Positions 7,927 through 58,600 of a DNA stretch of 64,000 bases are shown here, one piece after another (position 1 is the stretch's first letter; every line of letters starts with the position of its first letter). The position numbers were made by a program, and so were the translations under genes. Under the pieces are notes generated by a model. It saw only the letters and a program-made list of their open reading frames with translations. It did not search any database and was not told the DNA's origin. Source of the DNA: Asterochloris sp. CNOR1 (Eukaryota; Chlorophyta; Trebouxiophyceae; Trebouxiales; Trebouxiaceae); contig OZ017750.1 of the NCBI GenBank assembly GCA_963969365.1, positions 744,001 to 808,000 on the forward strand. The letters are read 5' to 3'.

Positions 7927-10900
7927 CTAAGCGACCACCCTCTGCAGCTTCACTTGGGGATTGCCCCTCTGGAGGATGCCATCTGTCAGGCAGCTCTGGT
8001 CCCACAGTGTGAACACTGTTCCATCTCCATAGCACTGCGTGTCTGTCCACAGCAGCTGCAGGACCCACTTCCAGAACTTGAAGTGGTCCATGATGTCCTG
8101 CCTTGCCCCCTCCACAATGAACCCTGCAACATGGTCGAGGGTAGCTTGGCATGAACAGGAGCTCAATCAGGCAGCTTTGCAGTCACCAGCTGGACGATGT
8201 GGCTTTGCCAGCAGCTTAAGACATACTGATGTTTGCGCAGCAGACAAAGAGGGCTTACGTGAAGGGGATGGCTGCATCTCAAAGAGGTGGATGTACACCT
8301 TCCCCTTCTTGGAGTCCTGCTGCGGCTTTGAACCATCCTCTTTGGCCTCTGAGTCGCTTGTCATGACAGGCGCAATGCTGTGCTCGAGAGCTCTGCATCA
8401 TGAAAAAGGAGCAGAAGCTGTAGGAAAGATGCTGCATCTCACATTGCACTGGCAACATTGTGTGGTGGGCCGAAAGCGCCGTGACAAACAATGGCGATGC
8501 ACACTTGGAGTCTGCAGCAAAGGTAGACTCAGCTGCCCGCTGCAGCCAGGGCGGCAGCATTAGGCACCCCAGTAGCTGCTCACAGGACAGGGCCGCAGCC
8601 TGATCAGCAAAGCTTGCAGGAGAGATAGAGGATCCCAGGGTTTGCACCGCCAGGACTCAGATGCAGCACAAGTTAGCACCATACCTGCATGGTCGCTCCA
8701 AGCCAGCTGCAGCAGAGGCCAGGGGCATGAAGCAGGTCAGCAGTTGCTCGCAGGAGAGGCCTCTGGTGTGCCGATCCCGGCGCTTGATGGCCTCAACCAC
8801 CTCATTTGCCACGTCCCAAGCCTCTGCCAGGCTGAGCTCGCTGGAAGTGGCGGATCGCACATTCATGCTGTCGTCATAGAACACATCCTGCATAACCGTG
8901 CATGCAACAAAGACCTAACTGAGTGCTCGGGCCTCTGCCAGGCTCAGCTTGGGGGAGGTGACAGGTCATCGTTTGATGCTGTTCTCATGGAACACGTCCT
9001 GCGGGGACAGTGCATTGAGACTCAGGCTCATAGATCTTGCCCTCTAGCAGGCAGCTTTGCTGCCAGTCAGCATGTCCTTCATATGTGCACAGCTGCCCTT
9101 GCTGCAGACGGGCTGCCTAGGCCTCTGCTGTGCTCGACTTGCTACAGGCAGCAGGTTGCATGATCCATCTGGGCGCTTTCAGCATGTCCTGCACAGCCGT
9201 CCTTGCTAGAGAAGGGGTAACAAGGCCTCTGTCTAGCCAGTTTGCTGACGCAGACCTGCTGCACCACAACACTGTTGCCTGAAACGCCCTGCAGGGTGGC
9301 AGCCACACATGCTGGTGCCTGCGACAACTTTGTCTCTCAAGCAGGCTGCACGTGGGCACCTGAGTACATGTCTAGCTGCTGATTCCTTGAGAGTTGAGCA
9401 CACAGGGCCACATCATGCAGGCTGCAGGCCCCAGCGCAGCTGTGTGCAGCTGGACCCATCTGTTGCTGTGCAGATGTTCCCTGAACACAAAGCATCCCAC
9501 CTCACAGAAGGCCTTGGGAACTGGGTACTCCTTCAGCGGTGGCAGGGCCTTCTGACCACTGTCTGGGTCGTCCAGCCACCGCGAGGTCGCCAACACGTCG
9601 CTTACAATGTCTGCCAGGGCCTGCACATGGGGTTCTTCAGTCAGGCTTTGGTGAGGCTGCAAGCATCCGTGTGCCGATCAATCAGAGGCCGGGCCCGAAG
9701 GACCATGTGAAGATTCGCACAGCAACCTCAACACAGCCTCGGCAGCTGCACAGCCTGCACTACCCCTGTCTGTTGCCGTCAGAAACAATTTGCAGGGATG
9801 CCAGCCCAGCAGGCCATCTCCCTGACCCAGTCAGCTCATGCCAACTGCAGACCTCTTGGGCCTGCCAGCATGCATGGAAGGTGAACCAGCTGCATCAGCC
9901 TTGGACGGAGGACAATGGCAGGGAAGCTCCATGGCCATTCTGGCAGCAGCTGCTGCAGCAGCCCGCTGTGGGGCCGTCCCGTGCCGAACTCAAACACTGG
10001 CTGCAGCGCACTCCCCTGCCCACCTCAAAGTCCTCGAGTGACACCTCACCCTCCCGCCCAGCACTGCCGCTGCCACCATTGCCGCCAGAGCTGTCTCCAT
10101 CGCTGCTGCTGTCCTCGACAGCGGCCTCCCTGGCGAGCTGCACCACCTTCCTCAGGTACCTCAACCACACCTCCTCCTGCAGGCAGGGCACAGGAGTCCC
10201 AAACAGGCTCTAGCCAGCCTGCCTCCGATGCAAGTTTCTTGGACTCATCCTCCACAGGCTGCTCGTCACACATCCTCCTACAGGCAGAAACGCAGAGTGA
10301 GCAAGAACATGCATTGCAATGCATTTCCTATGTCAGCCGCGCGCTCCCCAGGACGGTCAAAACCACATGCCCTGCTGCCGGGAATGGGCGATGGGAAACT
10401 GCTGGAGGCACCGCGTCCTACTGCAGCTGCTCTGGCTCTGGACTGACACTGCCACCGGCACATTTGCAGCAGTCGCTGGCCTTGCAAGCATCCTGACACA
10501 AATCATCTCAGCCAGGTTTGGAAGTAGCCAAACCTCCTGGACTGCTGCACAGAGATCTTGAGCAGCCGCTGGTCTCACACCAACAAAGGCTGCCAGCAGA
10601 TCGCATGATCCCTGCTCAGGTGCCCAGCTGCAAGGAGTCCCAATGTGTAGCCATGCTGGACCACAGATGCTACAACCCAGTCTTTAGACAGTGGTCTTTG
10701 CACAAGCAGGTGTTCACATCACCCTTGACGGCACTGCATCCCCTAGTGTGACTGGCTCCTACCTTGTTCGCCTCCTCCAACAACTGGTACTTGAGCTTGA
10801 GGCTGTCCACCCCCTCCCAGCTAAGCTCGTTCTGAGCCTCCAGCACGTGCACCACATCTGCGGCATCTGACACGCTGACAGGCTCCTTAGGCGCCTGCAG

Positions 10901-11723
10901 GGTCAGGAGGAGTCATCCCTTACAACCTGGAAGATCGGCCCTTGAGTGCCTTCAAACAAGCCTGAGTTGGCCCCATAAGGAGGCACGCTGCAGCAAAGGC
11001 TCCCCGACAGCCAAGCTTGAGAGAGCACAGCATGCTACATGTGTGCTGGATGTGTGGCCAGCAGCTGCTGTCATGGGCAGGCTTGCAGCACTGGCTGAGG
11101 CAGACTGCTCAGCGGCACCTGTCAGCCCAGGGATGCACACCTGAGGGGGTGGCAAACATGGCCCTCACCCAGCAAGAATTAGCACGGAGGTGCATGCACC
11201 TCTTGGGGTCGCTTATCACCAAGCCTGAGCAGCCCAGCCCAGCAGAGAGGTGTACAACAAGGGGGGGTGCAGCTGCTCACCCCATGTAAGACATCCTTGA
11301 AGGAGAGTGAGAGTCTAGAGCAGCACTGCCCTGCAGCTCACTCCATATGTGCGGGCAGGCTTTGCTGGTCACTCCATGTGACCTGCCCTTGAACCTGAAT
11401 GAATGCTGGATGCAGCACAATGCAGCGTTTCCGCTGCTCACCCCGTGCGGCAGGTCCTGCTTCCTCAGGGCGGCGCGCAGCTCGTGCAGCACGGTGACCC
11501 GGCTTGCAGCGCAGGCACCCAGCTGCATGCATCCTTCCCAGCCGTCACCACTGTGGGTGTCCTCCTCAAAGCGTGCTGACGCCGCCTGCACGGGCAGGCA
11601 GCTGGAATGGCGCCTGGCCGGCAGGCGGTGCAGGGAGGGGCGGCCAGGGGGAGCCATGCTGCGGGGTGCATGGCCTGGCAGCTGGCCCTGCAGGCAGCGG
11701 GGCTTTGCTGCGGCTGCAAACAT
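7927..11723 (-). CDS. Unrecognised multi-exon protein, tandem paralog copy 2
   Basis: This is the head-to-tail duplicate of the 3015-7655 gene, with the same exon order. The ATG at 11723 begins MFAAAAKPRCLQGQLPGHAP, which looks like a transit peptide, and exon A ends DTHSGDGWEGCMQ. The next exon carries VTVLHELRAALRKQD (about 11505-11441). Then follow VSVSDAADVVHVLEAQNEL (about 10890-10780), EEVWLRYLRKVVQLAREA with an acidic Ser/Gly tract (about 10185-10025), DVLATSRWLDD (about 9640-9520), LSCEQLLTCFMPLASAAAG (about 8890-8700) and KVYIHLFEMQPSPS (about 8400-8270). The last exon (about 8166-7927) has DHFKFWKWVLQLLW, TVFTLWDQSCLTDGIL and the stop. In copy 1 that last exon is split by an intron, while here the VTVLHEL and VSVSDAAD segments are separated by an intron that copy 1 lacks. 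The function is unknown. Similarity to copy 1 is moderate, so the duplication is not recent. Confidence 0.6.
8921..9003. repeat. Decayed copy of the neighbouring exon edge
   Basis: Positions 8930-9003 repeat 8821-8893, which is coding in tandem copy 2. Both carry GCCTCTGCCAGGCT, then a GAGGTGACAG/GAAGTGGCGG block, and end in GAACACRTCCTGC. The copy lies just upstream (minus-strand sense) of the real exon start, and its frame is broken. A weaker third copy may lie near 9180-9210 (CAGCATGTCCTGCACAGCCG). Confidence 0.65.
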
Positions 11724-12421: not shown

Positions 12422-14169
12422 ATGGCATCTGGTAGGTTGAAAGAGCAAGCCTGTCCAGACTCGATATTTGGCTGGCTCACTATCTTGGATCTGTTCTCTG
12501 TCTGCAGATACAGACTCATGGCACGAGCACTTCCTTCAAGTGCAGGCCCTGGCAAACGAGGTGCTTGCCAGCATCCAGGTGAGAGAACGTCAGCTGCACC
12601 AGGCTTTGCTCAATCCGCTGTGAAGCTGACTTGACCACGCCTGGCTACAGGAGAGGGACCAGAAATTCAAGACAGGGCAGCCAGAGGCCTCACGGATGAC
12701 AGCCTTGGCACGGCGAAAGCTGGGGCAGCTCAACACGAAGCTGGACAGCCTGGCAGAGATGCTGGATGCACCAGAGTGCGCAAGCATGTGAGTGGCCGCC
12801 TGTTGCTGTGGGTCTCAGCAAGGTTGCCTTGTGCTTCTGGCCAGCTTGGCATTGGCAACCTGCTGGCCCTGATGCTGGTGTCTTGTGCCCTGCAGCTCTG
12901 AGCAGGAGAAGAATCGGCGGCGGGACCTCATCACAGCTCTCAGGAATCGCCGGGAGATGATGCTGCTCTCGCTCAAACGGGATCGCCAGCACCAGGACAG
13001 GCAAGCAGTGGACGAACAGGGCTGTGCTCAGGGCCATGCATGGCCCACGCCCCCAAGCCAGGGTGCATCTCAGTGGGCTGCAGCAAACTGGGCGGACCAG
13101 AAACATGTCTGGTGGCAGGGCGTGCCTGCTGGACGATGCCCCACCGGCAGGACTAGTCCAGCTGCAGCATGCCTTTGTGTCTCAAGCTTCAGCAGGGCCA
13201 GCTTGCTGGAGAGCTCTGTGAAGGCCCAGCTGCCCAGGCCTCGCTGCGGGTCATTGCTGCTGAACAACGCTTCTACCACCAGAGCTGCCAGCTCTAACCT
13301 GCATCTGTCTCTCAAGCTCTGAGCAGGGCCAGCTTGCAGGAGGCCCCTGCGAACGGCCAGCGCTTAGCTGCCCTCGCCTGCCTGCAGGGCATCCCTTTTG
13401 GACAATGGCTCCACCAGTGGGCCAGCTCGGGAAACCGCTGAGACAGCTGACCGGGATTTGGGGGGCGTCCTGCGTCTGCAGCAGGAAACAATGCAGCAGC
13501 AGGAACACGACCTTGAGGACATGGAGCGCCAGGTCAACAGCACAAAGGCAAGTTGTGCGGCTTGGCAGTGCAGCACTGCCGCTTATAATGGGGTGGACGT
13601 AAGTGCCAGGGAATACTGTGCATTCAAGCCTGATGGCACCACGAAGGCCAGCTTCCCAGGGCTTGTTTTTATTGTGGCAGGCAGGTTGGCCTGGTGGGGG
13701 ACAAGCAGCTTCAGTTGAAGTCAACAGGAAGGCTTGATGCTGTTCTCAAGGTGGCTGAGTACACGTGTGGCTGGGTAAGGAGCGCTCGGTCAGCAATTTC
13801 AAGCCGGCAGTGCAGCGTCTTGCCCTGCCTTTGGTGCAGCACCCCGCATCAACTACACAAGCTAGGACACCTGTTGGGCAGTGCAGCCGACACAAGCGTG
13901 CTGCAGCAGGTGCACCCTGTACAACTCATACACGCCTCCTGCTGCAGCACCTGGCGCTGACTATCAATGAAGAGTTGTCCCTGCAAGAGGGCCTGCTGGA
14001 ACGCTTTGAGGAGGAGGTGGATGTCACCCATAGCAAGCTCAGGGTGGCCCAAAAACGGATAAAGAACCTGCTGCGGAACCCTGGCGATTGCAAATGTACT
14101 CTGTTGGCAGCGCTTCTCATGTGTGTGCTCATTGTTATAGTGCTGGTGGCCTTTAAAATCATCCTATGA
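12422..14169 (+). CDS. SYP5: SYP5-type Qc-SNARE (syntaxin of plants 51/52-like)
   Basis: This endomembrane Qc-SNARE of the SYP51/52 group acts in fusion at the trans-Golgi, prevacuolar and vacuolar membranes (family knowledge). Six exons join in frame: 12422-12431, 12508-12578, 12651-12787, 12896-13000, 13388-13547 and 13948-14169. The short first exon gives MAS, joined to DTDSWHEHFLQVQALANEV. The N-terminal region has RDQKFKTGQPEASRMTALAR, then RRRDLITALRNRREMML. The SNARE motif runs from LRLQQETMQQQEHDLEDMER across the last junction to LTINEELSLQEGLLERF and KLRVAQKRIKNLLR, with the expected central Gln. A single C-terminal membrane anchor (LLAALLMCVLIVIVLVAFKI) ends the protein. Introns 4 and 5 begin with GC (GCAAGC, GCAAGT) instead of GT. 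The extent agrees with the family's usual size. Confidence 0.93.
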
Positions 14170-14477: not shown

Positions 14478-17400
14478 TCAGTTGCCGCCGACTGCGACAG
14501 CGCGAGCAGTGTTGTCATCGTCACTGATGCGGGCCACCAGGTTCCTGTCACCGAACACATTGTCCACGCGAGAGGTGGTGGGCCAGAACTTGCTTTGTCG
14601 CACCCAGGCGGCGGGGAAGGCAGCCAGCTCGCGGCTGTAGGGTTTGTCCCACTTGTCGGCCAGCACCACATCGGCTGGGTGGGGGGCATTCACCAAAACA
14701 TTATCCTCCCTGCACAGCGCAGGGGGTGGGCTCAGCTTGAGGATGTGCCATGCTGCTGTGGCCAGGCCCACTGCTGCAGCGGCGTGCTCCTGCTGCTGCA
14801 GTGTCCTCTTTTGAGTTGTAGCACCGCTTCCAGCACGACTGGTGCAGGCTGAACCTAAGCTGGCAGATGCAGGGGCAAGTGCTCAACATCTTTCAGCAGA
14901 TCTGCTGTCACTCCCGCCCAATCTGCAAGGCACAGATCAGTGTGCACCCAACACCTGCCATTGTCAGGTACTCAGGCAGAAACATGCTGCAGAGCTGTGC
15001 TGGTCATGCCTGGCAGACGCACCGCACAGCTCTCCTGACATGGACAGTACAGGATTTCTTACTTGTCAGCCTTTCCATCAACAATCTCCTGGATCTCTGC
15101 CCTGATGGCAATCATGGCATTGCAGAACCTGTCCAGCTCAGCCTGCAGGAAGCAGCACGAAGCAAACAGTCAGGCGCCAGCAGAAGCAGCCTGCGGGGCA
15201 AGGCGAGGAGACAGCACACGACAGTCAGGCAGCAGTAGAAGTAGCATGCGAAATCCAATTGCAGCAGGAGGTGCCGACTGCAGTTTTGCTTAGAAGATAT
15301 GAATGCAGGTGCAGGACGTAAGCATATGCAGACTTGAAGGTGCCTGTGGGCCTCAGGGCATCTGCTGCATGCTGCAGAAGGACTTGTGCCCCACCTTGCT
15401 CTCTGACTCAGTCGGCTCAATCATGAGCGTGCCGGAGACGGGCCATGACATGGTGGGCGCATGGAAGCCATAGTCAATCAGCCTCTTGGCGATGTCCTCT
15501 GGGCCGATGCCTGCAGGCTGACACAGCGTCAGATGCAGCAGCAGTGTTCTGGGGAGAGTGACCACTTGAGCCCAGCGGCTTTCACAGTGAGTCATTGCGC
15601 AATACCAGCCACACAGTCTCTGCCCCAGACCTGATGGCCTCCGACAAGTCACCCTTGCAAACAGGCCTGGAGCGGACTGGATAGGGGCAGGGTATCAGCC
15701 TGCGCCACCCCCAACACATGGTGCCTCAACATCAGGTAGACCACTCAAGACAACACCTTATATACACCAAAGGCGCTAGCCTGGCACTCACCAGCCTTCT
15801 GCTCCAGCGGCCTGATGTCCAGGATGAACTCGTGGGCACAGGTGCCGGAACGTCCGCGGAACAGCACATTGTAGTGATCCTCCAGGCGCTTGGCCATGTA
15901 GTTAGCACCCAGGATGGCCTTCTTAGAGGCCTGCAGGGCAGTTCAGGTGGTTTTGAGGCCCTGGCAGAGGGCGCTGCACGATTGCTGGCTGCAGCCTTCT
16001 TGGAGACCTGCAACACAGACCATGGTTTGATACCTGGCAGGAGGCGCTGCACACGTGGGCTGCAGACCAGTGGCCTTCTCGGAGGCCTGCAACACAAAAC
16101 GAGTAGCACCCCATGCTCTCTTTTTGGACCCCTGGCAAGTTGCACTGCATCATTGGGCTGCCGCCCGGCGCAGCGCTCTTGAAGGCTTCTTCTCAGATGC
16201 CAACCGCTCTGGACATCAGCACCCATGGCTGCACTCTTAGACTGCTGACACAAAGGCACCTATACAGCAATGCGCTGGGCGGTCAGTGACTTACATCGGT
16301 GAGGCCATCAGAGCCCATCATGGAGATGTAGGCAAAGGAGATGGGCAAGATGAGGGCTGAGCCGTAGGGGGCGGCTGCCAGGGCGCCGCAGGACTTGCTG
16401 TCATCCTTGAAGCCGGGGAGGCCACCTGCAGGAGGGGCAGCTGCAGTTCAGCGAGCTGCAGGAAAGGGCTGCTGGTGCAGATGCCGCCAGCAGAGGCCAT
16501 CATGCACCTAAGGCAGAACCCAGATCCTTGAGCTGGGAGGCCACCTGCGGAGAGGCCATCCAGGGTCAAGCAAATGACAGACAAGGGCTGCTGGCACAGC
16601 TGCCACCAGAGACAGCCATGAACCATCATGCCCCTTGTGCAAGGCCCAGCTTGTCATGCTGAAGTCACTCATCAAGGGAAAGTCACCAAAACACTGGTGA
16701 AATGCTCTGACAGGCCCTCGGCTGCCTGCACTGCCCAAAGCAAGGCTGGGCGGTTGCCACCAAGAAGGGCATGACGCAGCCCTTGATGGCATACAGACCT
16801 GCTTCTGCACCGTGCACAGTGGTCAGGCCCTTCTGCCCAAAAATGTGCAGTTTGATGTGCATGCTGTAAGAAGAGTCACCTGTGGCGACGATGGGGTGGG
16901 TGGGCAGGAAGGGTGCCAGGTGGGCCTTCACGCCGATGGGGCCCATGCCTGGGCCACCGCCGCCGTGGGGGATGCAAAAGGTCTTGTGCAGGTTCAAGTG
17001 GCACACGTCTGCTCCAATGATGCCAGGGGCTGTCAGGCCGACCTGCAAGCAGCAGGCACCTGAGGTTGCAGCACACCCAGCGTCAAGCTTCTGCCTGTGC
17101 ATTGGGCTGCACTCAGACGGTGACAGGTAGCCAGGCCTGCTGAGTGCTTGCATAAATGGGCACAGCCCTGCCTCTTGGACAACTCCCTTTACCACCTTGC
17201 AGCATGTTGCTGTGTGCACTTATGCAGCACAACCCCCGCCAGGTGCCAATTTAGCCAGACATATGCCTCAGGGCAGCGCGGGGGCCAAGTGCATTCACAC
17301 ATCCGTGCTGATCTCAGCCTAGACCCCTACACCATGCTGCCCAGCCAGCCACCTGTGCATGCTTGTAGGCACACCAAGCGAGGCAGGCCGCCTGCCTGTG

Positions 17401-20400
17401 CACTCATGTCGGCCACAAAAGACGCCCACTGGGACGAATAATGTAAATGCGTGTTGACATTCACATGCCCACAGCAACACTGAGCGACCTCACCAAGGTG
17501 CACAGCCATGCTCCCCACCTGTGCATTCATGTTGGCGCCGTCCATGTACACCTGGCCCCCATTGTCGTGAATGATCTTACAGATCTCATCCACGCCCTCC
17601 TCGTACACTCCATGGGTGGAGGGGTATGTGATCATGAGAGCACCTAGGCTGCAGCGCAGAGGGGCCAGGCATGAAGAATAGTGTTTGTGTGGTGCACTGG
17701 GACAATGTACAACCAGCTGAAGCCCCACAGCTTTGACTGCTGCCTAGCAAGCTGAGCAAGGCAGCTGCTTGACCTTCACAAATGCAGGCAAAGCTGATGT
17801 AAGCCAGGGTAGCTGTCATGCTGCGTTCCTCCTCAGCACCCCTTGACCAGCCGCTTCAGATTTGACACACTGCATTGACTTGGAGGCAGCAGCCGCACGC
17901 CCACTGATCTGGCTCCAACCCATTGAAGCGATGTGCACCGCAGGGGCAGCATGTGGCGTGGAGTATGTGGCATGAGGCATGAGGCGTTCCGTTAAAACCA
18001 CCATAGCCAAAGCCAAGCCAAGGCCAGCACAGACTTTACAGGAAAGCCAGGAAAGCTCACTTGTCCTTGTACTGCTCCGCCTTCTTCTTCAGCTCCTCCG
18101 CATTGATGTTGCCCTGGGCATCCACACCCACAGACACCACCTTCATGCCCGCCATGACAGCCGAGGCAGGGTTGGTCCCATGGGCCGACACGGGGATGAT
18201 GCAGATGTTGCGGTTGGGGTTTCCGTTGGATTTATGGTAGCCCCGGATGGCCATCAGCCCGGCGTATTCACCAGCAGCCCCAGAGTTGGGCTGCAGGGAC
18301 ACTGCATCAAAGCCTGTGATCTCAGCCAACTGCTTGGCCAGCTCCTGCAGGCAACGGGGAAGCAGAGCTTTCAGTGGCTTCAATGGCTGGAGCAACAGTC
18401 ACTGCCTTCCAGCATAAGGGTAACATGCACACCAGATTCGACATTCATTTTGTCGGACCATGTTGGACCATGCTGCATCTGAAGAGCGTCCCAGCTGGAG
18501 GGGCCACCCAAAGCTCCCCTGCACCCTACATGTATCCAGGCACATTGCACACCTCTGAGTGGCCCTCTGCCTGTTTGTTGTGTATGCGCGCCAGCAAGGC
18601 AAGCCAAAGCAGGACCCCACCTGCCATAGGGTCAACAGATGCAGCCCCAGCACCAGAGTGATGTCTTGCCTATGCCACGAGACCTCAACACACTGCGCAA
18701 CTGCCCCTTGCCACATTGTCAGGCACCACACATAGCATTGCCCAGCCACCATCCCTCACCTCAAACATCTCGGCGTAGCCCTCCGCCTGATTAGTAGGAA
18801 CAAAGGGGTGCAGGCTGGCCAGCTCGGGCCAGGAGATGGGGATCATCTCGCTGGTCGCGTTGAGCTTCATGGTGCAGCTGCCCAGGGGGATCATGGAGTG
18901 TGCCAAGGACAGGTCCTTGTTCTCCAGGCGCTTCAGATACCGCAGCATCTCGTGCTCACTCTGCAGCACGGAGGTCGAATCCAGTCAGAAGGTCTGGAAT
19001 GGTTGAGGACAGTTGCGGTCTTGCTCTCCAGCTACCACACCACCTCATGCTTATTTAGCAGCAGCGGCAAGGGGCTGACTGAGATGTCTGCTGTTCATGG
19101 AAGCTAAGAATGCGCCTATGGGCATGATACGCTTGGTCTGCAAACAACGCAGCATCTCATGTTTACCCTGCAGCACAGGCAGGGGTGTCCTGTGAGCAGC
19201 GCTGCAGAGATCTACCCAATAATAATAGCAGGGAGCATTCCGCTTCCTCTTTTGATGGTATAGCATCCCCTGCTCACTCTGCAGCACAAGCAGGAGCGTC
19301 TTTGGAGGTCTTGTGGCGTCAGAAAGGACAGGGGAAGAATGCATGTCACCCTGCCCTCAATAGCAGACTGGCACTACCCATTGAATGCTGCACCACCAGA
19401 GGGAGAGGCCTTTGGGCTATGCAGTGGCCTGCTCTACATGAGAACAGGTGCTGCTGCGCACATCTGTTCTCTGGCATGATGCAAGCTGGGGACAGGCAAT
19501 GCTGCTCTCACCTGGTACAGGTTGAAGATGGGCTGCTGGAGGAACTTGGAGCTCCTCTTGAAGCTGCCCACCCCGGTCTCGACCTGCAGGCAGGCAGCGT
19601 GACAGTGACATCGGGCATCTTCGCGCTAGTCTGGGAGGCTCTGATTGCAACCACGCAGCCTGCTGGGGTGAAAGAGCAGCACCAGCTACACAGCATCCAC
19701 GCGGGCAGTGCGCACAGCTGCTTAGCACAAGAAGGCTCTGTGCCTTATGTCCCTGCCGAGAGGGAGGATGCAGCTAACAGTAGAGGGAGGATGCAGCCAA
19801 CAGTCAGGCAAAGCCATTGCAAACCATGTGCACACCTGCTCAGCAAGGGCCTCAGCCGTGAAGTCAGCAGCCTTGCCGCCGTTGAAGGCCTTGAACAGGT
19901 CATCAACATCCTCAATCCTGCACACAAAGGAGCACCTCTGACCATCTGTGTCCAACATGTACATCGGGTACTGCTGGGTGCCCTCATCATCAGCTCTGTC
20001 AAAAGACATTGCTGCTTGACAAGCAGCACCCTGCCAGTAACAGACCACCTCTGCCAAAGTCCATGTCGGTCAGACCCTGCAGATCCTCATAGGCTGCAGC
20101 GCACCTTGTGGTCTCGTCAAACGCCACTGTCACGCAAGATTTGTCCAGCTGGCGCAGGTTGATCCCCTGGGACTCTGCCTGCTTCACCAGCTTGCCCGCA
20201 TCCTTCACGTTGACCCTGACGGTGTCAAAGAATGGCGCATCGGCCACCTGGTGCCCCAGCTTGGCAGCGCCTGCAGACACACACAGCCCACATACAGTGC
20301 TGTGGAGAGGGCTGACAGTTTGCGAAGGCTGAGAAGAAATCGCTAACAGACAACAAGGCTCTGCCTACAGCCAGGCCTTGTTGTGTGAGGATTTACCAAC

Positions 20401-23400
20401 TGCTGCAAGCTGGTAGATTGACAGCATCTTGCTGGGGTACACTGAGCCCCAAAGTCAGGGAGAGACCTCTGCGGCATGCAGCAGCGCTCACACAGCCGTG
20501 CGATTTGAGCTCCCTACCGCAGCATGGCGCGGGAGCCCCATGCACGATTGGTCTGTCGCGACATTGAGAGTGCGGATCCAGGTGTGGCAGCTGGCCCCTG
20601 CCATGAGCCACTCTCCACAGGAATGACATGATGCTGCCAGGGTGCTCACCCTGGCACGCAGCCAGGAAGCCCCCGCCGCAAAGACGCAGGCCAGTCTCAC
20701 GGAACTGCACAGATGTGATCCTGTACAGTATGCTGTCAGGGACCACTGCCCCAGGCATGACAGCAGGCCTCCCAAGAAAGGCACCCCTGCACACACCTGC
20801 AGCAAAGACGTGGGCCAGCCCGTTGACCCGGGTAGCGATCTCGCTGAGGCCCTCAGGCCCGTGGTAGACAGCGTACATGGCAGAGATGTTGGCCAGCAGC
20901 GCCTGCGCAGTGCAGATGTTGCTGGTGGCCTTGTCTCGTCGGATGTGCTGCTCCCGGGTCTGCATGGCCATGCGCAGCGCGGGCTTGCCATTGGCATCGC
21001 GGCTCAGGCCTGCAGGCAGAGGCGGGAATGTTCATACATCAGACTATGTTTGACCTCAGGACCAGGCCGATGCACAGCATTGTCCTGGCGATACTGGAAG
21101 CATCGTACCTGTGCTGCACTCAAGGGTGCCAATGCACGGCATGTTCTGCCTGTGCCTGGAAATTGCGCAATGTAAGTGGCTCAGGTGGCTGCCCATGAGG
21201 ACTCTGCTGCTCTGCAGCACCCCAGAGTCTCGCGGCCAAGATGCAACCTGGCAGCAGGAAGTTGCGGCAGTCATGCTAGTACCGGCCTCCCATGGCAGCC
21301 AGCAGTGTGCACGCAGGGTTAGGTCCATGAGGGAGCAGGCCTGCTGGCCACACAGAAAACCTCCCTGGGCCCCAGAGTCAGTCCGTAGGGTAGTGACAAA
21401 CTGCCTCAGCACCTGCTGCGCTTGTACTGGGTGAAGGAGCATGCATCATTACTGGCTTGGGAGGCAAGACAATCAGTGCACTGCATGCAGGCGCGCTTAC
21501 CAATGATGCGCCCTGGCAGCAGGCGCTTGCTGTCCTCATGGCAGGCCAGGAAGGCTGCGTGGGGCCCGCCGTAGCCCATGGGCACGCCAAAGCGCTGTGC
21601 AGAGCCAATCACGGCATCCGCCCCCCAGCTGCCCGGCGGCTCCAGCATGGTCAGCGCCAGCAGGTCAGTGGCCACCACCACCTTGGCTTTGGCCTCTTTG
21701 GCCTTGGCCACAATGTCCTGCAGCAGCAAATGAATCGAAGGTGAGAGACTTGATTGTCCTGCCAGGCTTTGGGTGGGCGCTGATGTGGGTCAGTCACCAC
21801 TATCAACCTGGCCTTGCCCAAAGACTCCAGAAAAATGCGCAGCAGATCAGACTAAAGCTTGGAGTCTGACTCCAGCTTGACCTGCTAAGCGTTTGTCGGT
21901 GGAGTGATGGCAGCCACCACCTTGATGGTGCTCATAGCGTCCTGCAGCAGATTGCTTGCTTGGCCTGCGGTGGGTCGAGCGCCTCGAGCAAAAAACAGGC
22001 AGCCCTGCCGATGCTGTCCCCACAATAGAGGCGTATGGGCACCATGCATGGCACAAATTGGGCTGCCGCAGCCTGCAGTGGGTCTGCCAGGGCAGTGTGT
22101 GCTGCCGTGCATGGCAGATGCAGATGCTAGCCTCAGTTGGAATCCCCTCAGAAGTTGCATCCAGCATTCAAAGCATCCTGTTCATGCCTCCTTGCCGTCA
22201 CTTGAGCCGTGAAAGCAGCATACAGCTGCTGTGGTGCCACCAAGAATGCAGCATACAGCAGCTGTGATGCCGCCACCACTAGACGAGGTACTTGCAAGGC
22301 AATCTGACATAGTTAACCCGCCCTGAAGCAGTGATGATGCTCACCTTGTAGTCATGGACAGACCCATCTGTGGCCGGGTACTGAAGCAGCACGCCCGACA
22401 CGTCCTTGTCGATGTTGAAGCTCTTCTCGTCCCCAACCTCCACTGTCAGCCCCAGGCCTGAGGCTCGCGACTGCAGGACTGAGATAGTCTGGGGGTGGCA
22501 TTTGTCCTGCACAGCAGGGGCAGCTAGGTCAGAGCCGCTTCCTTGCATCTTTGCAATGGTTGAGCACCAGGCAGCAGCTTGGTCACGGTAAGCAACCAAA
22601 GCCCACCCTGCTGCTCTTGGTGTGCACCAGCAGAGCAGCAGAGCCAGTGTGACTCCTGAGAAGGAAAGCAAGTCCCCACTCCAGGGAGCACCATGCTGGC
22701 CTGGGGAATCTGCAGAGCCAGCTGCTGGTTGCCTGCCAGGCAGCGCTGAGACCCAGAGAATTTGCTGTCGCAATCTGCTGGGAACCAGGCGGCTTTCCTG
22801 CAGAATGACGCCTGCCAAACAAAGCCTGAGGCCAGCAGGGGAGCTCACCGAGACCAGGAACTTCAGCTTCTTCTGCCTGCTCTGTGCTGTGCACATGGTC
22901 ATGGCCTCTGCTGCAGCTGTGGCCTCATCCAGCAGGGAGCAGTTGGACAGGGGCATCCCTGTCAAGTCTGCCACCATCGTCTGGAAGTTCAGCAGCGACT
23001 CCAGCCTGCACCAGGCAGCATTGCCTTGCTAGTGCAGCCAAAGCGTTTCTCCACTGATCTGAATGAGCAGCGCAAAGCCTCCTGAATGATGGTGGGCCTG
23101 CCTTGCGCAGATCAGCTCATGGCTGGCCAGGTGGACGGCAGCGTCAGCCATGATCACCCCCCCTTTGAGCTGACAGAAGGGGCAGCTCTGGGCCATGCAG
23201 ACCTGTGCCCCAGGCAGCACACCCAGCATGGCTGTGTCCATCTCGTGAGCATAGCCAGCCCACAATGCAGGCAGCCCGCTCTGTGCAATCTCTGCTGGGT
23301 GTAGCAGTGCCTGGCCAGCCCTCTGTGCCACTCAGACACCACCAACAGCTACTTTCTCCCTCTGTTGTGCCAAACACAGCATCCCTGACGCAGGCAGCGT

Positions 23401-39000: not shown

Positions 39001-40262
39001 ATGGTGATTGTACTGCCCTGCAATGGTCTCCCAGGCGACTGATCGCCACTGATCCTATGCCAGAGGTTCCCATAAAGGCAGGCCTGGCATAATGCAGAGC
39101 TGGGCTGCATTCACGAGAGGTGGGAAGCTCAATGTCAAGTACTGCACCTGCACCATCTGCCAGCTGTGGCCTCACTCATGCAGACCATGCTGGGCAGCTG
39201 GGACAAGCACCTGGGGGCTGGACCTCACCTGTCGAGCCGGCTGGCGCAAAGTGTGGCCATCAATGGCATCGCCAATTCCTACATGGTGAGCTCAGGCCTG
39301 GAAATAGCAGCAATTAGACGCTTTGCTGGGACTTGCAGTGCGCATGCAGCAGCAGGGTAGAGGGCTTGGCTTGCAGGCAATGCTGGCAGATCATCCCCTG
39401 TTTCTGCCAGCATTGCCCGTCACAGTGTCAGGAGTCTCAACATTGCGCTGCTCACTGCTAGTCGTGCATCAGTCGCTTGGCAGTGCACCTTGCCTGCCCC
39501 TCACTTTGCAGGCTGCTGTATGTGGCCGTGCATGCCTGCATCATGCCTGCCCTGCACCTGCCTCTGCTATCTGTGCGACATGCCTAGAATGCTCCTAGCC
39601 AAAGTACTGGCTCCCTTTCCTGCAGGCTTTCAACACCAACTATCACGACACTGGCCTTTTTGGGGTGTACGCGACGGCAAACAGGGATGACCCTGTAGAC
39701 GACGTGGCCTGGGCCATCATGCGCGAGATCAGCCGCATGTGCTACAGCCCTGTGGAGGAAGACATCATTCGCGCTAAGAACCAGCTCAAGGCTGCCATCC
39801 TGTTCAGCCAGGATAACCTCAACGGTGAGCTTTGCTTGGTTGATGGGAATGGGCTACTTGTGGTCAGCTTCATGCGCTGGGTGTGTGCTGTTGCTCAAGG
39901 CTGCCACGTTGCTTGCTTACGTCAACTGCAATAGAGAGCATTGCTGGGCAGAAGACTTGCCCTCCCCAAGTGCAGGGCTGAGGGGTACAGGGGTCAATTT
40001 TTCTGACGCGGCTCTAAGCTTACACATGACGTGGACTGCAGGCATTGCCGAAGAGATCGGCCGACATCTGCTGGTTTACGGGCGCCGCATCCCCAAGGCC
40101 GAGCTGTTTGCTCGCATTGATGCAGTGGATGCTAGCGTAATCAAGGCAGTAGCAGACCGCTTCATCTATGACCAGGATGTTGCCATTGCTGCCCAGGGTG
40201 ACCTGCTGAATCTGCCTGACTACAACTGGTTCAGGCGCCGCACCTACTGGCTGCGGTACTAG
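36061..40262 (+). CDS. MPPB: Mitochondrial processing peptidase beta subunit / complex III core 1
   Basis: This M16 metallopeptidase removes mitochondrial presequences. In plants and algae it is also a core subunit of the cytochrome bc1 complex. Exon 1 (36061-36240) starts [20 protein letters not shown], a presequence. Exon 2 (36462-36623) gives [20 protein letters not shown] and the zinc motif HFLEH. Exon 3 (36972-37067) gives [20 protein letters not shown] with the third ligand Glu. Then come [37 protein letters not shown] (exon from 37882), [96 protein letters not shown] and [20 protein letters not shown], ending YWLRY with TAG at 40260-40262. The intact HXXEH argues for a catalytic beta subunit, not a degenerate core protein. 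Confidence 0.96.
37757..37836 (+). repeat. Well-preserved duplicate of a beta-MPP exon 5' part
   Basis: About 80 bp lying 125 bp upstream of the real exon at 37882 repeat its start with its own acceptor CCACAG. The copy reads [20 protein letters not shown] and the real exon [20 protein letters not shown]. Identity is roughly 80% by eye at the DNA level. M16 proteins have this segment once, so the copy is a partial exon duplication. It stays open over its length and could be spliced in aberrantly. Confidence 0.85.
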
Positions 40263-40499: not shown

Positions 40500-43400
40500 A
40501 TGGTGGACCTGGGACTGACTGAGGCTGGACCTAAGGCCATCGCTGGCATCTGTGGTTCTCTAGCCATCATGATTTCTCTCTACCAGGCAGGGCATTGACA
40601 CCAACCCGGCAGCTGCATGGACATGCCTGTTGGCATGATCTCTGGTTAAGTAGTTTTTCTGGCTGCAGATTATGTGCCATCTGCGCAACTACACGGGACC
40701 CATCTTTCAGGTCTGCAAACAATGGAGAGCGGCAGCATTGCCCTGATTGGATTGCTGCTGAGGCTCTTCTGACCCTGGAACTGCTGCAGAGATACATTGT
40801 GCGCCTGATTTTCATGATTCCAGTCTACTCTGTGTCCTCCTTTCTCTCCTTTATCAACCCCAGCAATGCCATTTGGTATGATTCTGTCCGAGACTGGTGA
40901 GACCCCTGTGGCACAGGAGGATGCATGCTGCAAGTCCTTGAATAGCTCACCTGGCCAGCACTGCCTGCCTGGGGCAGCTTACTGGCAGCCTGCCATCGCC
41001 AAGTCAGGGCTGCAGGTGACAGCCATGTGCCCGGTGCACTGTGCTGCAGCAGCCTGCAATGATGCGGAGCATGCAGAGGCAGCATACCACTTCCGGCCTG
41101 TCAGCTGTGACTCATGCCACCCATGTGATGCTGCGGCAGAGCGCTGCACCAGTGCAGGCTGCAGAACCAGCAATTCATGGGCCAGCACAGCCCTGGGGCT
41201 TGTACTCCCACTGTGCACCTGCAACACCCCATGCTTGCACCGACATGAGGCAGCCATGAGTGCTCCATACTTGCACTGCTGCTGTGCAGCTATGAGGCCT
41301 GGGTCATCTACAACTTCCTTTCTCTCTGCCTGGCCTACGTTGGGGGGCCAGGCGCGGTCGAAGTCAAGATGAATGGCTACGTGCTGATGCCCTCTTGGAC
41401 ATACAGCACCTGCTGTCTGCCCCCGCTGCTGGTCAACGGGCGCTTTGTGCGGATGTGCAAGCGGGTGAGCAGCAACAGCGCTTGCCGCATGGCAAAGCGG
41501 ACATCTGCTTGGCCTGAGCTGATGTGTCCGGGAGCCAGTACGGCGTGCTTCTTCAGGGGGAAGCGGCCCGGCTCAAGATGCTGCACACTGACTACACTGT
41601 TTGTTCAAGCAGTGGCCATGCTGTCTGCCCCCGCGGCTGGCCAGTGGGCGCAGTGTAAGCAGGTCATCAGCAGGGTTGTGCTGGGTCACAAATTGTGCAA
41701 CGGTCGCATGCCTAGCAGCCCCACTATGCAAGACAACGTGTGCCTTCAGGCAGCCACACCATGAGACCTGGCTGCACCGCTTGTCTCCCAGAAAAGCGCC
41801 TGCATGCTGCTGCACCCATCTGCTTTTCTTAGCAATGCTGCGAGTCATCAACTGCTGCGCCTGGTTGCAGGGCACGCTGCAGTTTGTCCTGTTGAAGCCC
41901 GTCATGGCGGTCCTGACCCTGGTGCTGTACAGCCAGGGCAAGTATGAGGAGAACTGGAGCGCAAACAACGGGTGAGAAACCAGCCTGCAGCACCCGCTGG
42001 CATGCCAGCCTGCATCCGCTGCTCCAGTGGCAGCTCACAAGAGCAGAGAGCTGGGGTGGCTCCTGGGCCCTGCATCCTGTCCCTGGCTGGCAGGACACAG
42101 AGGCAGCTCGGCTGCCAGGCCGCGCCTCTGCTGCCCACTTCTCCACCAAGGAGTCTCAGCTCAGATGGAAGCCCAGCCCGCTCCCTGACTCCCAAATGGT
42201 GCTAAATACTCAATAACCTGCCCATTTTTCTATTGAGGAGTTGCAGCTCTGCTGAAGCCAGCCCGCTCCCTGGTCACCAACTGGTGCCAAATGTCCGGAT
42301 ACTTAGACACTCTCTTGGCCAGGCTTTGTGATGCAGGCAGATGCAGGCACTCGCGGGCTCCGTCCCGGGTGTCAAGCACCTCGGCTCTGGACTCCGCAGC
42401 TTGAGACCCTTGAGCATGAGTTATGGTGCATTGCCGGCCATCCAGCTCCCCACCCAAAACGCCGACTGCAAAGCCTCATTGAGCACCAACACACATTGCT
42501 GTGCTGTGGTCAGCCCACCACTGGCAGTGTGTGCCAGCCAGCCAGCTCCCTGTGCAGATGCACTGTGCTGTGTCAGCCACTCAGCTCTCCACCCAGACGT
42601 CAGCTGTGAGCTGTGCCCACTCTGCTTGCAGCTACCTGTGGATCACCATCGTCTATAACGTGACCTACACGCTGGCGCTGTATGCCCTGCTCCTGTTCTA
42701 CCTGGGCACGCATGACTTGCTGGCCCCCTTCAAGCCCATGCTGAAGTTCTTGGTGGTCAAGTCCATCGTCTTCATGACTTTCTGGCAGGTGCGGTATCTG
42801 CCCTCCATCTCCCCTCGGTGTCCATTGGCTTTGGCATCAAAGTCCTTGCCAGGCTGGGGGGAGGGGCTGCCATGCACAAGTGTGCTTGCAGCGGCAGCGC
42901 TTGCACTGCGGGGAGGGTCAAGGCTCCGGTCGGTCTGAGCCACAGCGTCTGGGAGGTACAGCTGCGCACCTTTGCAGGGGAGAGCAGCCTAGCTTGAGGT
43001 AAAGCACACTGGCTGAGCTGCTGCTGCTCCAGCACAGTAGCCGTGCAGTGTACTCATGCCAGGCGGGCTCATCACCTTCTGCAGTATGCGCAGCTGTGAG
43101 GTCTTGAGTGGTGCCGCCGCCATCTGCCTTTGCCCTGGCATCTTGCTGAGGCTTACTGCAGTCTCACATCACCCTTTGCCTGCCTGTAGAGCCTGTTCAT
43201 TGTCATCCTGACCAGCTCGGGGGCACTGGCAACCACTGATGACAATGGGAACACCACCAATGAGGGCACGCAGCTGCAGGAGCTGTTGATCTGCCTAGAA
43301 ATGCTTCCAGCAAGCATTGCCATGCTCTGGGCCTTCAACTACAAAGACTACAAAGGCACAGGCAAGGATCTAAGCACGATTGCAGTTTTGAACAGCCTGT

Positions 43401-46221
43401 TGGTAGGGCTAAGACCCGGCAGCAGGTTCTGCCTGCTTTGAGTAAAGTTTGTGGCATATTCCGGCTGATCTGGCAGAGCTGCTGTCGAAGGCCCCACCTT
43501 GCAAGCCTTCAATCGCAAAGGTGCAGGCAAGTGCAGCTCTTGCCCAGCTTCTTGCCATACCATTGTCTGCAGCAAGGCTGCCAAAGCACCCTGTGTGTTG
43601 GTTTTTCTGCTGCATGTCGCCTGTGGCCCTGGGAACCACCTGAACACGCTGGCCAGCTCTGCCAGCAATTTAAATGGTCATGGTCTTGGCTGATGCTAGC
43701 ATGAGCCTACTCTGCCCCCTGCTGGATGCTGCAGGCCCCCATACAGGGCTGGATGTGCACAATGTCACACACGCAATCAGTGTGCGGGACCTGGTGTCAG
43801 ACACGGTGCACCAGTTCGCGCCGACCTACCATGACTATGTCCTGTACAGCAACAGCGGGGCCAAGTCTGCGCCCAAGGTGACACCCTGTGCTTTCAGCTG
43901 GGGCTGAGCTGCCTCTGTGACATGGTCCTCTTTGGCAGACAGGCATCAGAGGTGCATGCAGAGATCAGCATGCTTCTCAATGTCACGTGCACATGTGGCA
44001 GCCACCAACATGGAGGAGTCCAGGGCCTGCTGCCAGGCAGGCAGGCCGGCAGGCCCTTCAGAAGTTGTGCTGGAGCAGCCCAGGGGTGCTATGGGCTCTC
44101 CCTTGCTGAGCTGCATGCATTGCTGGCAGAGGCAGTCGGCAAGATTGCAGCTGTGCTCTCTTGCAGACCCTGCAATGTGCCAGGGCCCCCCCTTGCTTGC
44201 CATGGGCTGCTGGGGGCGCAGGCTCTCTCCCTGCAGCAGAGAAGGCCAGCCACCATCTGCCCATACACGGGCCCAGAAAGCGTGTAAAGGCTCAGCCAGA
44301 CACAGCCAGCTGACATCCTGCTGAAGACTCATGCGCCACGCCTCCCTGCCAGCCACCATGCCTGCATCCGGCTGCTGCAGGCACAGGGCTCTCCCTCTGC
44401 CAGGAACGGGCAGCCATCAACGCCTGAGGTCAGAGACAGCCACCTAATGACTGTCCACATGCTGCTGCAGACGCAGCGCGCCAAGGCCATCCCGTTGCCG
44501 AAGGGCGTGGAGCTGCAGCAGGCTGGGTACAACTTCAGGGACAATGCCAACCTGCTGGCCAACATGGAGCTGGGGGTGCACCGGGAGGACTATGAGCGCG
44601 AGACAACCGACCTTGACAAAGACTCTGAGGGGACGCCGGGGGCGCAGGTGGGTCCGCAGACTGGGGTCTGCTAAACTTGACTCCTAAACGCTGAACCCCT
44701 CTCGGGTCTGCCCAGTGCTCATTTGCTCCATATGAAAGGAGGCATCCAGAGGGCCTGCCTGGGACCTGCATGCAAGCTGTGAGGTGAGCAGGCCTGGACA
44801 GGGACCTGAGGGAATGCTGGGGGCGCAGGGTCCCCTGGGGTCCTGCCTGAGCGCTGGGTATGTGCTGGGGACTCCAAGCTTCAGATCATATTGGTGTATA
44901 GCTGAGGCCTCTGCTGAGGAGGCGTGCATCCACAGAGAAACAGGGCTGCATGAATGCGGTAGAGAGACCACAGGTGGGGTTGCATGCAGGCTTTGCTGTG
45001 CCCACAGGGCACGACACAAGCACACATGACGACTGACCTGGACACAGACTTGGAGGGGGTGCCAGAGGTACAGGGTGGTTTTGGCAGCATGCCACTCGGC
45101 TGAGTTGGCGTCGGGGAGCAGGGTGTCCTGACAGCCTGCCTGGAGCTGCAGGCGTACTGTGAGGAGACAAGCCTGGCTAAGGACTCTGACAGTGCGTATT
45201 GGGCTGCACGGAGGTCCTTCAGGGAGGGACTGCTTGAATGCTGCATTGGCATGGTTGATTGCAGAAGCATGAAGGTTGGGGTGTGCCTGGGGCTGTGTGG
45301 CCGCTGGGGGCCATGCATTCCGAAGGCAGGCTCTTAACCTCTGAAGCAGCTGCAGCCTGTGCCTTTCGATCCTTCACAAGGCTGCCAGCAATTAGCTTTA
45401 CAGCCTGCGCTTGTGAGGCTCTGCAGTATTTGGGTGAGAGCACACTGGCCAGAGCTGCACATGTCTTACATGTTTTGTGGGTGATTGAGGACCTCATGGC
45501 TGCTGCACCCTCCGCCCTGCAGGCAGCTGAGCCAGGCATGGCAGCCTATCGGGAACCTCGATACACAGACCAGGACGATGACGTGTTCCAGGTAGTTGTC
45601 AGCTTTGGGGTGCTTCTTGGGGTTCTGCGCCACCCAGTTGTTGCAGTGCCCCAGCCTGTTTGTCGTGGCAACCTGATATCAGCAGCGTGCAGCCATGCAG
45701 ATATGTGCTGCCCGTCCTTGCATGCCGTGATGGGGTTTGCTCACTGGGGCCTATCGGTCCCCATTATCTCAGCTAGACCATGAATAGGAGTTGGTGCTGG
45801 TCTCAGTGCTGTCACCCCCTGCTCGCAAAGAGGCTCTGCCTGAGCTGTCACCTCTGATCACATGCACAGGTAGCCTGGCATCTGTAGGTCAGCAGGTTTT
45901 GCTGAAACAGACCAGCACTGGGCACTTCTGCCGCAGGAACGCGCGCCGCCCAAAGATGATGATGATGAAGGCATCGAGTACTACTCAGCTGATGTGAATG
46001 CACGGCGCACCACGTCAGACGATGTGGATGGGGAGGGGAAGAAGAAGAAGCATAAGAATAGGGTGCTGCGGCGAACAACCACGGACGATCTAGCGCCAGG
46101 GGACACCTCCTTGCAGATGGAGGACGATGCACCCCAGCCACCGAAGTCAGCCGAGGAGCGGCGGCGGGAGTTCCTAGCCAGGGGCTGGAGCAACGTAAAA
46201 CTTGACGACGACGATTCTTGA
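40500..46221 (+). CDS. LAZ1/TMEM184-type membrane protein (OST-alpha superfamily, DUF300)
   Basis: This is a seven-helix membrane protein. Plant LAZ1 is a tonoplast/endomembrane protein linked to brassinosteroid signalling and cell death, and animal relatives include OST-alpha transporters (family knowledge). The ATG at 40500 starts MVDLGLTEAGPKAIAGICGS, with LAIMISLYQ as helix 1. Further exons give IMCHLRNYTGPIFQ, RYIVRLIFMIPVYSVSSFLS with INPSNAIWYDSVRDCYEAW, IYNFLSLCLAYVGGPGAVEV, GTLQFVLLKPVMAVLTLVLY, YLWITIVYNVTYTLALYALL, PFKPMLKFLVVKSIVFMTFW, SLFIVILTSSGAL and CLEMLPASIAMLWAFNYKDY. The hydrophilic tail has RDLVSDTVHQFAPTYHDYVL, HREDYERETTDLDKDSEG (exon end 44647) and EIEYYSADVNARRTTSDDV-like acidic/basic blocks, with the stop at 46219-46221. 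Intron 1 appears to use a GC donor (GCAGGG). The long tail introns contain decayed exon-edge copies. Confidence 0.93.
44770..45210. repeat. Three decayed tandem copies of an exon donor edge in a LAZ1 intron
   Basis: The exon ending at 44647 reads ETTDLDKDSEGTPGAQ. The following intron holds a copy at about 44795-44835 (GACCTGAGGGAATGCTGGGG then GCGCAGG), one at about 45027-45075 that would read TTDLDTDLEGVPEVQ, and one at about 45155-45195 that would read YCEETSLAKDSD. They lie 150-250 bp apart and lose the frame between copies. Confidence 0.8.
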
Positions 46222-49868: not shown

Positions 49869-49897
49869 AAATGAAGTCACTAACTGCTCAACCAACA

Positions 49898-55614: not shown

Positions 55615-58600
55615 TCAGTGGTGGGCTGAGTCTGGCAGCTGGGCACTCTGCTCCTCTTCCTGCTTCATTAGTGCAGCCAGCCGAGCCTCTGCCTGGGTCA
55701 GGACACTGGGAGGAATCACGCGGTTGGTAGCAAAGTTGTCAAACACTGCCAGCACGCCCTGTCCTGCAGCCCAGCCCAGAAACAGCACCTTGTGAGCTTG
55801 CAGCATGGGCCTGAACCTGCATCCCTCATGCACCTGGGCTGGGAGCTGTCACAAAGCTGACTGCTACCACAGCACAGCTTGCCCTTGCAGAGACTACATT
55901 GAGGGCATCTTTTCTGCTTGTCCAGTCCGTGCTCTTCTGACCAGTGGAGCTGGCAGTCACATGTCAAGCAAGTGGTGTGCTAGCTGACCTGATGCCTCCA
56001 TGTAGTCTTGCACCAGCTGGCCGTTGGCGTCCTTGGCCAGGTTCCACTTGTCTGCAGGTCACACACGCAGCTGCTGAGACACCACATCTTGCACTTACAA
56101 CTCAGCCCAGCACGAGCCTTTGACAGGCTCCATCCCATGCAGTCCGCCTCAGGGAACAGCCGGTAGTGAGCTGCTTGGCACCCTCATGCCAGGGCCTCTC
56201 ATGCTGCAGGCTGCCAACACAGCTGTGTCCTCATACTGCACAATGTTCACAGATTCCCAAGGGCCCTCCTGCTGCAGGGGCCCAACAAGCTAGGGGCCCT
56301 CATGCTCTGTGACGCTTAGCACAAAAGCCAAAGGTCATCCTGCTGCAGGCTGCCCACTAGCCAGGGTCTACGATGCTGCAGGCTGCTTACACAAGCCAGA
56401 GGTCTACCTGGCGACGGCTGCCATCAAGCCAGGGGCTTTCATGCATACGAGGCGCACACAGAATCCACAGGTCCTCCCGCTGCAAGGTTCCACAAGTCAA
56501 GGCACCTGATCGTGCATGCTGCACACACCATCAGGGGCGTTACCTCCATCCTTCTTCTCGTACCACGACACCAGCATCTTCCCATGCGTCAATTTCTCAA
56601 TGCGACCAGTCCTGCAGGCAGTAGGTCTCCAGTGAGGTCTACTTGCAGCTTCAGACATTTGCTTGCAGCTCTCTGAGGCATACAGCTGGCATACTACTGT
56701 CGTACGGCTGGTATCAACTCACTCTGTTTATGAAGATGCAAGCTTGACCTGAGGCCTCATTGTAGGTTACGCTCCTGAGTACTGGTGCTTGTGACAGGGC
56801 TAGAGTTCCAACCTCAGGTGCTAGGGCTGCAGCTACAGCTAAAGCTGGACAGAATCCTGGCAACAGCTAGACCACTCATCATCATAGACGTGTTCATGCC
56901 AGAAGCCCTCGATTCTAAAAATGGGTCTCACCAGCACAGCTGCTGCAGTCGCAGCCGCAGCTTGAGCTGCACAGACAGCCTGGCAAGAGCTTGAGCCCCA
57001 AGGTTAAAGAGTGAACCACCAGCACAGTAATCAGGGCTCCTACATGCACAGGAAGCCGGCAACCGCTACAGCTCAACATTCGAGATCCTCATGACTATAT
57101 TGCTAGTGCGACACCCTCGATTCAATGGGCGGGCTCACCAGCTAGCACAGCTGCCATGGCTGCAGATCCAGCGCCGGCTGGACAGCTAGCACGGCATCAG
57201 CTTGACCAGTCATCACTTGAGATATCACGCAAACCCTCTTCAAGTTAAACAATGGGCCTCACCAGCACAGCTGCCGCGGGTGCACCTCCAGGTTGGTCAG
57301 CGCGTCGGCGTGGTCAGCCGCCATGATGACCTTGCGTGAGGGCCGCAGGTCTGAGGGGTGGATGTCATTGCCCCTCCCTCCCAAGCTGCCCTGGGCAAGC
57401 TGCTGCAGCTGCTGCAGAGCGCGCTGGGCGTTGCAGCCTGTCAAGGCAACAGCAGGCCCTGGCTCTGACAACTCTGGCACTGCGAAGCTGGCATGTGGGC
57501 CTGGCTGGGGGTGACCTTGCATCTGAGCTGCCACCGAGCCAAGGCCGTACATGCCTGCCTGCTGGAGGTGGCCCTGCATTTGGGGCGCTACAGAACCGCT
57601 GGCGTATGTACTAGGCTGGGGGTGACTCTGCATCTGAGGTGCCACAGAGCCGCCAGCAACTGCACCAGGCTGCTGGTGAGCCTGTTGCTGAGCTGCCACA
57701 GACTGTGGCAGGGGCGGCACTGAGCCTGCAGGGTGGCAAGGGCCAGCCTGCATGCTGCTCTGCTCGCTGTACAGGGCTGTATGGTGGCTGGAGGGCGGAG
57801 GGTCCCCCCTGCCAGCGCTGCAAATCACTGCCATGCCTGCTGCCGAGACTCCAGCACCCTGCACGCCCGTCTGCCCGGGAGCAGCGCCTGCTTTCACGAA
57901 GCTGCCTGCTGCCTGGTGCTGCTGCTCTGGCTGCTGCGCCAGGCAAGCATCTGCCATCAAGGTGTTGGAGCCTTGTGAGGGTAGGATTGTGCTCCCAAAG
58001 GCGCCTGACATCTGTGACTGCACGTTAGCAGGGGCAGCAGCAGCAGGCCTGGCCATGTTGCTGCTGTTGGGGGCTGCCTCCCGGAGTGCTGGTGCTGCAG
58101 CTGCGGCTTGCATTGGCCTCTGTGCAGTGACCGCCTGCTGCGCTGCACCCTTGGCCCAACTTTGCAGCATCTGGGTGGCTGCGGCACTGCCTGCCTGCAT
58201 CTTCAGCGCATGATGCGATGGCCGACCTGCCATGTCTGCCTGCTGTTGCAGGGACACTGCAACCTGCGCCCACTGCTGGGCCTGGCTTGGCTGCTGAACA
58301 GCAGGCCTCAGTTGCTGTGGCTGCTGCTGCTGCAACAAAGCCTGCAGAGGGTAGCTCTGCATGGCAGACCGCAGAGACTGCAGTCCAGCACTGCCCACAG
58401 GCCACCCCTGCTGCTGCTGGTGCTGCCCATACACCAGCAGGGACTCTGGCACATATGGTGCAGCCTGCAGCTGTGCAGCTGGCCTCGCATGTAGTGGGGC
58501 AGGCTGACGCTGCTGCTGCTGCTGGCTGGCAGCCTGCTGAGAAGCCAGCAGCAGCTGCTGGCGCTGCCTCTGTGCAGCGTCCCACTGGTGGCCTGCAGTA

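Follow-up and report, generated by a model that had tools for sequence, protein, structure and literature searches.

Copies of exon edges in the introns of Asterochloris sp. CNOR1 and their probable origin as short tandem duplications

The window and the copies in its introns

The stretch analyzed here comprises 64,000 nucleotides of the Asterochloris sp. CNOR1 genome (contig OZ017750.1, positions 744,001 to 808,000; termed the window herein), and the introns of its predicted genes carry decayed copies of the edge of an adjoining exon. Genes were modeled with a two-strand splice/coding hidden Markov model (HMM), self-trained on a 284-kb sample that consists of the window and 22 stretches of 10 kb from 18 large contigs (the whole genome comprises 56.38 Mb in 21 contigs); the models are predictions without RNA backing, and all counts cover the window and all 22 stretches unless stated otherwise. 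The trained HMM converged on sharp splice sites (donor CAG/GTGAGC-like and acceptor CTGCAG/, with the slash marking the junction) and predicted 444 introns with a median length of 345 bp. Six of the seven window proteins submitted had a Pfam match, the families being peptidase M16, PALP, ribosomal L1, Ostalpha, ubiquinol-cytochrome c chaperone, and DUF383. The M16 match covers residues 2 to 150 and spans the junction at exon 37882-38046, in an MPP-beta-like gene. The top solved-structure match of the ribosomal L1 gene, scoring above the rest of the list, was 4v61, a chloroplast ribosome, and gene 4 (exon 15792-15930) resembles the glycine decarboxylase P-protein. The rbcL gene lies on contig C21, with 8q04 as its top solved-structure match followed by 1gk8, a Chlamydomonas Rubisco; together with the L1 match, this probably points to a green alga.

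A first-pass annotation of the window had claimed that introns hold copies of the adjoining exon edge and had proposed self-alignment against mismatched exon-intron pairings as a check. Among the 411 introns tested, each of ≥60 bp with both flanking exons modeled, 52 carried a copy of a flanking exon edge on either side (score of ≥30), compared with 2/411 for the reverse complement. The edge of the upstream exon was found in its own intron in 26/398 cases and that of the downstream exon in 28/397, so that donor and acceptor sides were equally frequent (26 versus 28), whereas introns of other loci yielded 2/1,592 and 4/1,588 (0.1 to 0.3% at score 30), the reverse complement 0/398 and 2/397, and the reversed intron 0 and 0. 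Own exons thus stand far above all controls, and the pattern is real and common in the sampled genome.

Within the window, 101 introns of at least 60 bp, with modeled exons on either side, gave 202 edge tests, from which about 0.5 positives were expected by chance. Edge copies that were unmatched by any of 309 introns from other loci and any of 400 length-matched stretches were found in 18 introns of 8 genes on both strands (Table 1); the 309 control introns could be shorter than the target, and the length-matched control returned the same 18. When the window was compared with itself by blastn (E value of ≤0.01), 14 direct pairs lay within 500 bp, 3 at 2 to 5 kb, and none farther, and the sole inverted match counted was a 22-bp palindrome. 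A blind repeat scan of the sample within 1 kb likewise gave 212 direct and 18 inverted pairs (the weakest at about 28 bits). The copies are therefore local, direct, and recurrent, as had been annotated, with own-exon matches high and the reverse complement at background.

The nine places named at first pass fared unevenly. Copies were confirmed at 37.76, 16.0, 19.2, and 8.9 kb (acceptor side) and at 44.8-45.2 and 57.1 kb (donor side). The other three did not stand: even with gentler scoring, 13/400 controls were as good at 21.9 kb and 25/400 at 50.6-51.0 kb, which is unremarkable after nine places had been tried, and 86/400 were as good at 56.3 kb, where the repeat is an intron-intron array.

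TABLE 1 Exon-edge copies and a related array located in the window. The entry 0/400 denotes an edge test equaled by no length-matched control and by 0/309 introns of other loci.
Position	Strand	Feature	Source and support
6771-6812	-	Copy, acceptor edge of exon 6458-6683	Source 6651-6692; 0/400
8535-8591	-	Copy, donor-side part of exon 8685-8887	0/400
8931-9002	-	Copy, acceptor edge of exon 8685-8887	Source 8820-8891; 0/400
10267-10287	-	Copy, acceptor edge of exon 10024-10176	0/400
13158-13294	+	Copy, intron end and start of exon 13388-13547	Source 13288-13428, 70%; blast pair crosses junction; edge-only test not significant (14/400 controls as good)
15994-16091	-	Two copies, acceptor edge of exon 15792-15930	16071-16091, 0/400; ~15994-16012, seen without control
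16524-16556	-	Copy, acceptor edge of exon 16295-16425	0/400
17349-17370	-	Copy, donor edge of exon 17519-17648	0/400
19262-19287	-	Copy, acceptor edge of exon 18760-18960	Source 18944-18969, 92%; blastn pair; 0/400
23275-23295	-	Copy, donor edge of exon 23409-23561	0/400
27457-27484	-	Copy, acceptor edge of exon 27052-27322	Source 27311-27338, 93%; blastn pair; 0/400
30268-30292	+	Copy, acceptor edge of exon 30508-30680	0/400
37745-37834	+	Decayed copy, acceptor and first ~78 nt of peptidase M16 exon 37882-38046	Source 37868-37959, 80% identical; blastn pair; 0/400
39893-39906	+	Short copy (only 14 bp), donor-side part of exon 39626-39824	0/400
41619-41651	+	Copy, donor-side part of exon 41277-41464	Source 41411-41443; blastn pair; 0/400
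44205-44255	+	Copy, acceptor edge of exon 44381-44647	0/400
44793-45189	+	Up to 3 copies, donor edge of exon 44381-44647	44793-44829, 0/400; ~45028-45079 and ~45140-45189, without control
56257-56473	-	Tandem array within intron, without exon-edge match	blastn, control test
56917-57171	-	Copies, donor edge of exon 57263-58718	56917-56964, 0/400; ~57123-57171, without control
59388-59405	-	Short copy (only 18 bp), donor-side part of exon 59558-59755; repeat-rich stretch	0/400

Geometry, splice sites, and divergence of the copies

Among 66 matches with a score of ≥28, the spacing between copy and source was 58 to 418 bp (median, 122 bp), close to the unit size of about 75 to 250 bp given at first pass, and in all 66 the match extended no farther into the exon than the spacing, as tandem units require. 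Of 63 independent clusters (≥40 bits, arrays collapsed), 50 had a spacing of <160 bp, with units mostly of 60 to 145 bp. The 20 strongest had alignments about as long as their spacing (median ratios of 0.97 and 0.95; ≥0.8 in 15/20), which indicates a head-to-tail arrangement with no spacer; the best-kept pairs are thus direct, head to tail, and free of a spacer, as short tandem duplications are. A clear case is found at positions 8998-9128 of sample stretch L007, where a 63-bp unit lies head to tail across a donor site and the copied GT is now TT.

The copied splice dinucleotide was intact in 12/53 copies and lost in 41/53, counts in which many alignments stop before the junction. By side, GT was kept in 2/26 donor copies and AG in 10/27 acceptor copies (Fisher's P = 0.019); among copies that reach the junction (score of ≥24), GT was intact in 6/23 and AG in 13/27, for a total of 19/50 (P = 0.15). 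A more frequent loss of copied donor GTs than of acceptor AGs, significant in one of the two countings, is only suggestive, and the gene finder may favor models with the decoy lost. As for the annotated supply of decoy splice sites, some copied sites are indeed intact, and the supply belongs mostly to the past. Across the whole sample, the acceptor consensus was very strong (T 0.94, G 0.91, and C 0.95 preceding AG), and C occupied donor position 2 in 6% of predicted introns.

In 54 matches with a score of ≥30, mismatches fell on 116/739 first, 84/731 second, and 157/732 third codon positions (15.7, 11.5, and 21.4%, respectively; P = 1.4e-6). This third-position excess implies that the exon copy has been under coding constraint while the other copy drifted freely, and copies "born diverged" are disfavored, the mismatch frequency at third positions being 1.9 times that at second positions. 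Pairs of ≥88% identity made up 6/48, compared with 32% predicted by a constant-rate simulation (P = 0.0017), and pairs of ≥92% identity 1/48, compared with 21% (P = 0.00018). Under a steady process, young pairs should not be outnumbered by old ones, and the duplication rate has therefore probably fallen; this scarcity of young duplicates suggests a past burst with a lower rate since, a result that depends on the simulation settings.

Uniform placement, anchoring, and other explanations

We consider the exon-edge copies to be short tandem duplications of an ordinary kind, made conspicuous by decay on one side only, with a probability of about 0.74. Short head-to-tail duplications would have arisen genome-wide, most likely, judging from published work, through error-prone repair of staggered breaks. 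Where a duplication spanned a junction, the outer copy would have stayed in use, and the inner copy and its splice site would have become intron. Coding selection would then hold the exon copy still while the intron copy decays. Because the exon copy is held, exon-intron pairs should remain recognizable after intron-intron pairs have faded, and introns consequently look filled with the edge of the neighboring exon. In simulations at a neutral distance of 0.25, the detected fraction was 0.51 for exon-intron pairs and 0.17 for intron pairs, so an excess of exon-edge pairs can be obtained without anchoring if most duplications are old.

The alternative that carries most weight, although we regard it as doubtful, is that duplication was truly anchored at exon-intron junctions, for example through splicing- or transcription-linked breaks clustering there; it is favored by several results that tell against uniform placement. 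When 79 pairs (≥40 bits, arrays not collapsed) were shifted along the sequence, 36 pairs of a junction-spanning with an intron segment were seen and 13.9 expected, and only 1 intergenic pair compared with 9.3; pairs with one copy entirely exonic and the other intronic numbered 14 (10.9 expected), and intron-intron pairs 18 (27.1 expected). Among independent pairs with a spacing of ≤160 bp, 35 were exon-edge and 13 intron-intron, whereas the constant-rate uniform simulation detected 663 and 837, respectively, so that uniform placement requires mostly old pairs. The exon reach per unit in 33 matches was below simulation at t values of 0.2 to 0.4 (P = 0.05, 0.013, and 0.06), which was not the case at 0.5. 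Further points against our reading concern age and decay: the age estimates disagree, with the mismatch level suiting a t of about 0.16 to 0.2, at which simulated matches average about 63 bp compared with the observed 41 bp or so; in the weaker clusters, only 6/43 had an aligned length near the spacing, fewer because decay shortens the alignment; and the intron sequence beside the junction was barely more alike than the control, which is expected if both sides decay and is no positive proof.

On the other side, uniform placement with old ages and one-sided decay gives a fit comparable to that of anchoring, the log-likelihood gap being 0.03 to 0.20 in three settings. Joint fits of age and anchoring in these settings gave factors of 0.50, 1.41, and 0.35, with intervals from 0.25 (the grid edge) to 8 or 11. 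Under uniform placement, simulation predicts that junction pairs make up about 0.41 of the junction and intron pairs together; the long, well-kept pairs comprised 11 junction-spanning and 7 intronic ones, which is not significant (P = 0.07 to 0.39 for uniform shares of 0.41 to 0.55), and the remaining pairs 24 and 6. Intron-internal pairs exist, as do two exon-internal tandem duplications with in-frame spacing (window positions 57487-57651, 111 bp, and L003:4937-5098, 75 bp), and the donor and acceptor sides are equal. The anchoring claimed at first pass is thus not established: it is unnecessary, uniform placement being adequate if most duplications are old, and the data are weak and leave room for modest anchoring. 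We find it likewise unlikely that a past burst concentrated at splice junctions (2- to 3-fold over uniform) built much of today's intron sequence and that selection then erased the copied donors.

That the copies are duplicated alternative exons kept for alternative splicing is very improbable: AG is preserved in some copied acceptors (10/27, or 13/27 among those reaching the junction), but the matches take in exon edges and not whole exons, splice dinucleotides were mostly lost, and the spacing had no clear bias to multiples of 3 (remainders 0, 1, and 2 in 22, 13, and 19 cases). We give still less credence to the Rogers/Hellsten model, in which introns are created when an exon segment that has a proto-splice site is duplicated in tandem. 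It would account for exon-derived sequence within introns, but it places the copy of the downstream exon at the intron's 5' end, at a spacing equal to intron length, and this geometry was wrong in 65/66 matches (median ratio of spacing to intron length, 0.27; one ratio of 1.07, in a doubtful gene model of L004, and the next 0.83). At L004:8524-9480, a tandem array surrounds predicted 9-bp exons, which reflects either a doubtful model or local intron gain by duplication. Least credible is a dispersed repeat family or introner elements: the unit size is fairly regular, but exon edges reached score 30 in hardly any introns of other loci, and when three copy-bearing introns were searched against all 56 Mb of the genome, each hit nothing beyond its own sequence, apart from one that also hit its own exon, and no dispersed relatives were found. 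The annotated privacy of each array to its exon and its unlikeness to introner elements held in these three introns.

Known duplication systems and neighboring genes

Short paired duplications were reportedly treated by Thomas et al. in 2004. Exon-edge copies across algal introns were the subject of no publication among the top literature matches, in a search whose coverage leaves out most subscription titles. The first-pass annotation knew of no standard name for the process, but short tandem duplication already has published names and mechanisms.

In vertebrates, repair-mediated duplications are local and short and can include intron splice sites, and a slowdown over time has been reported for those of primates (Pace et al. 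2009, PMC2671141). The present copies resemble them in all these respects, including an intensity that probably fell with time. In Table 2 of that paper, "partial exon/intron" donors number 4, with 824 events, whereas 52/411 introns are affected here and the best-kept pairs lie head to tail, detection methods differing so that the rates are not directly comparable. As we read the same source, the captured copy lies near its source without needing to adjoin it; the best-kept pairs here, the only ones clear enough to judge, are adjacent. Small tandem duplications can also arise when 3' overhangs at breaks are filled in (Schimmel et al. 2021, PMC8355091), and for natural insertions in humans and plants the introduction of that paper refers to a break-repair model. 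Those duplications are likewise short, direct, and tandem, whereas the present sample is old and decayed, to a degree that has blurred the unit ends, where microhomology or fill-in scars would lie. Tandem duplication that copies exon-intron structure is shared with two further studies (PMC4974935, 2016; Lehmann et al. 2010, PMC2891723); unlike there, existing introns grow here, and the new-intron geometry fits at most 1/66 matches. Introner elements (PMC9860276) also give intron sequence a traceable origin; they are similar copies in many unrelated genes, in contrast to the three introns searched here.

As had been annotated, the copies add intron sequence; they provide a tangible origin for intron length in this genome and supply naturally occurring pairs of real and copied splice sites. 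They also carry a warning, in that one-sided decay can make exon-edge copies look enriched in introns even under random duplication. Anchoring, if true, would tie mutation to splicing.

Two further observations concern genes of the window. A single predicted gene at 24991-28176 (minus strand) joins PALP (cysteine-synthase-like) and a TXD17-like thioredoxin domain, as either a true fusion or two genes merged. The adjoining genes at 3015-7655 and 7927-11723 (minus strand) are apparently diverged paralogues, as judged from their predicted proteins compared by eye.

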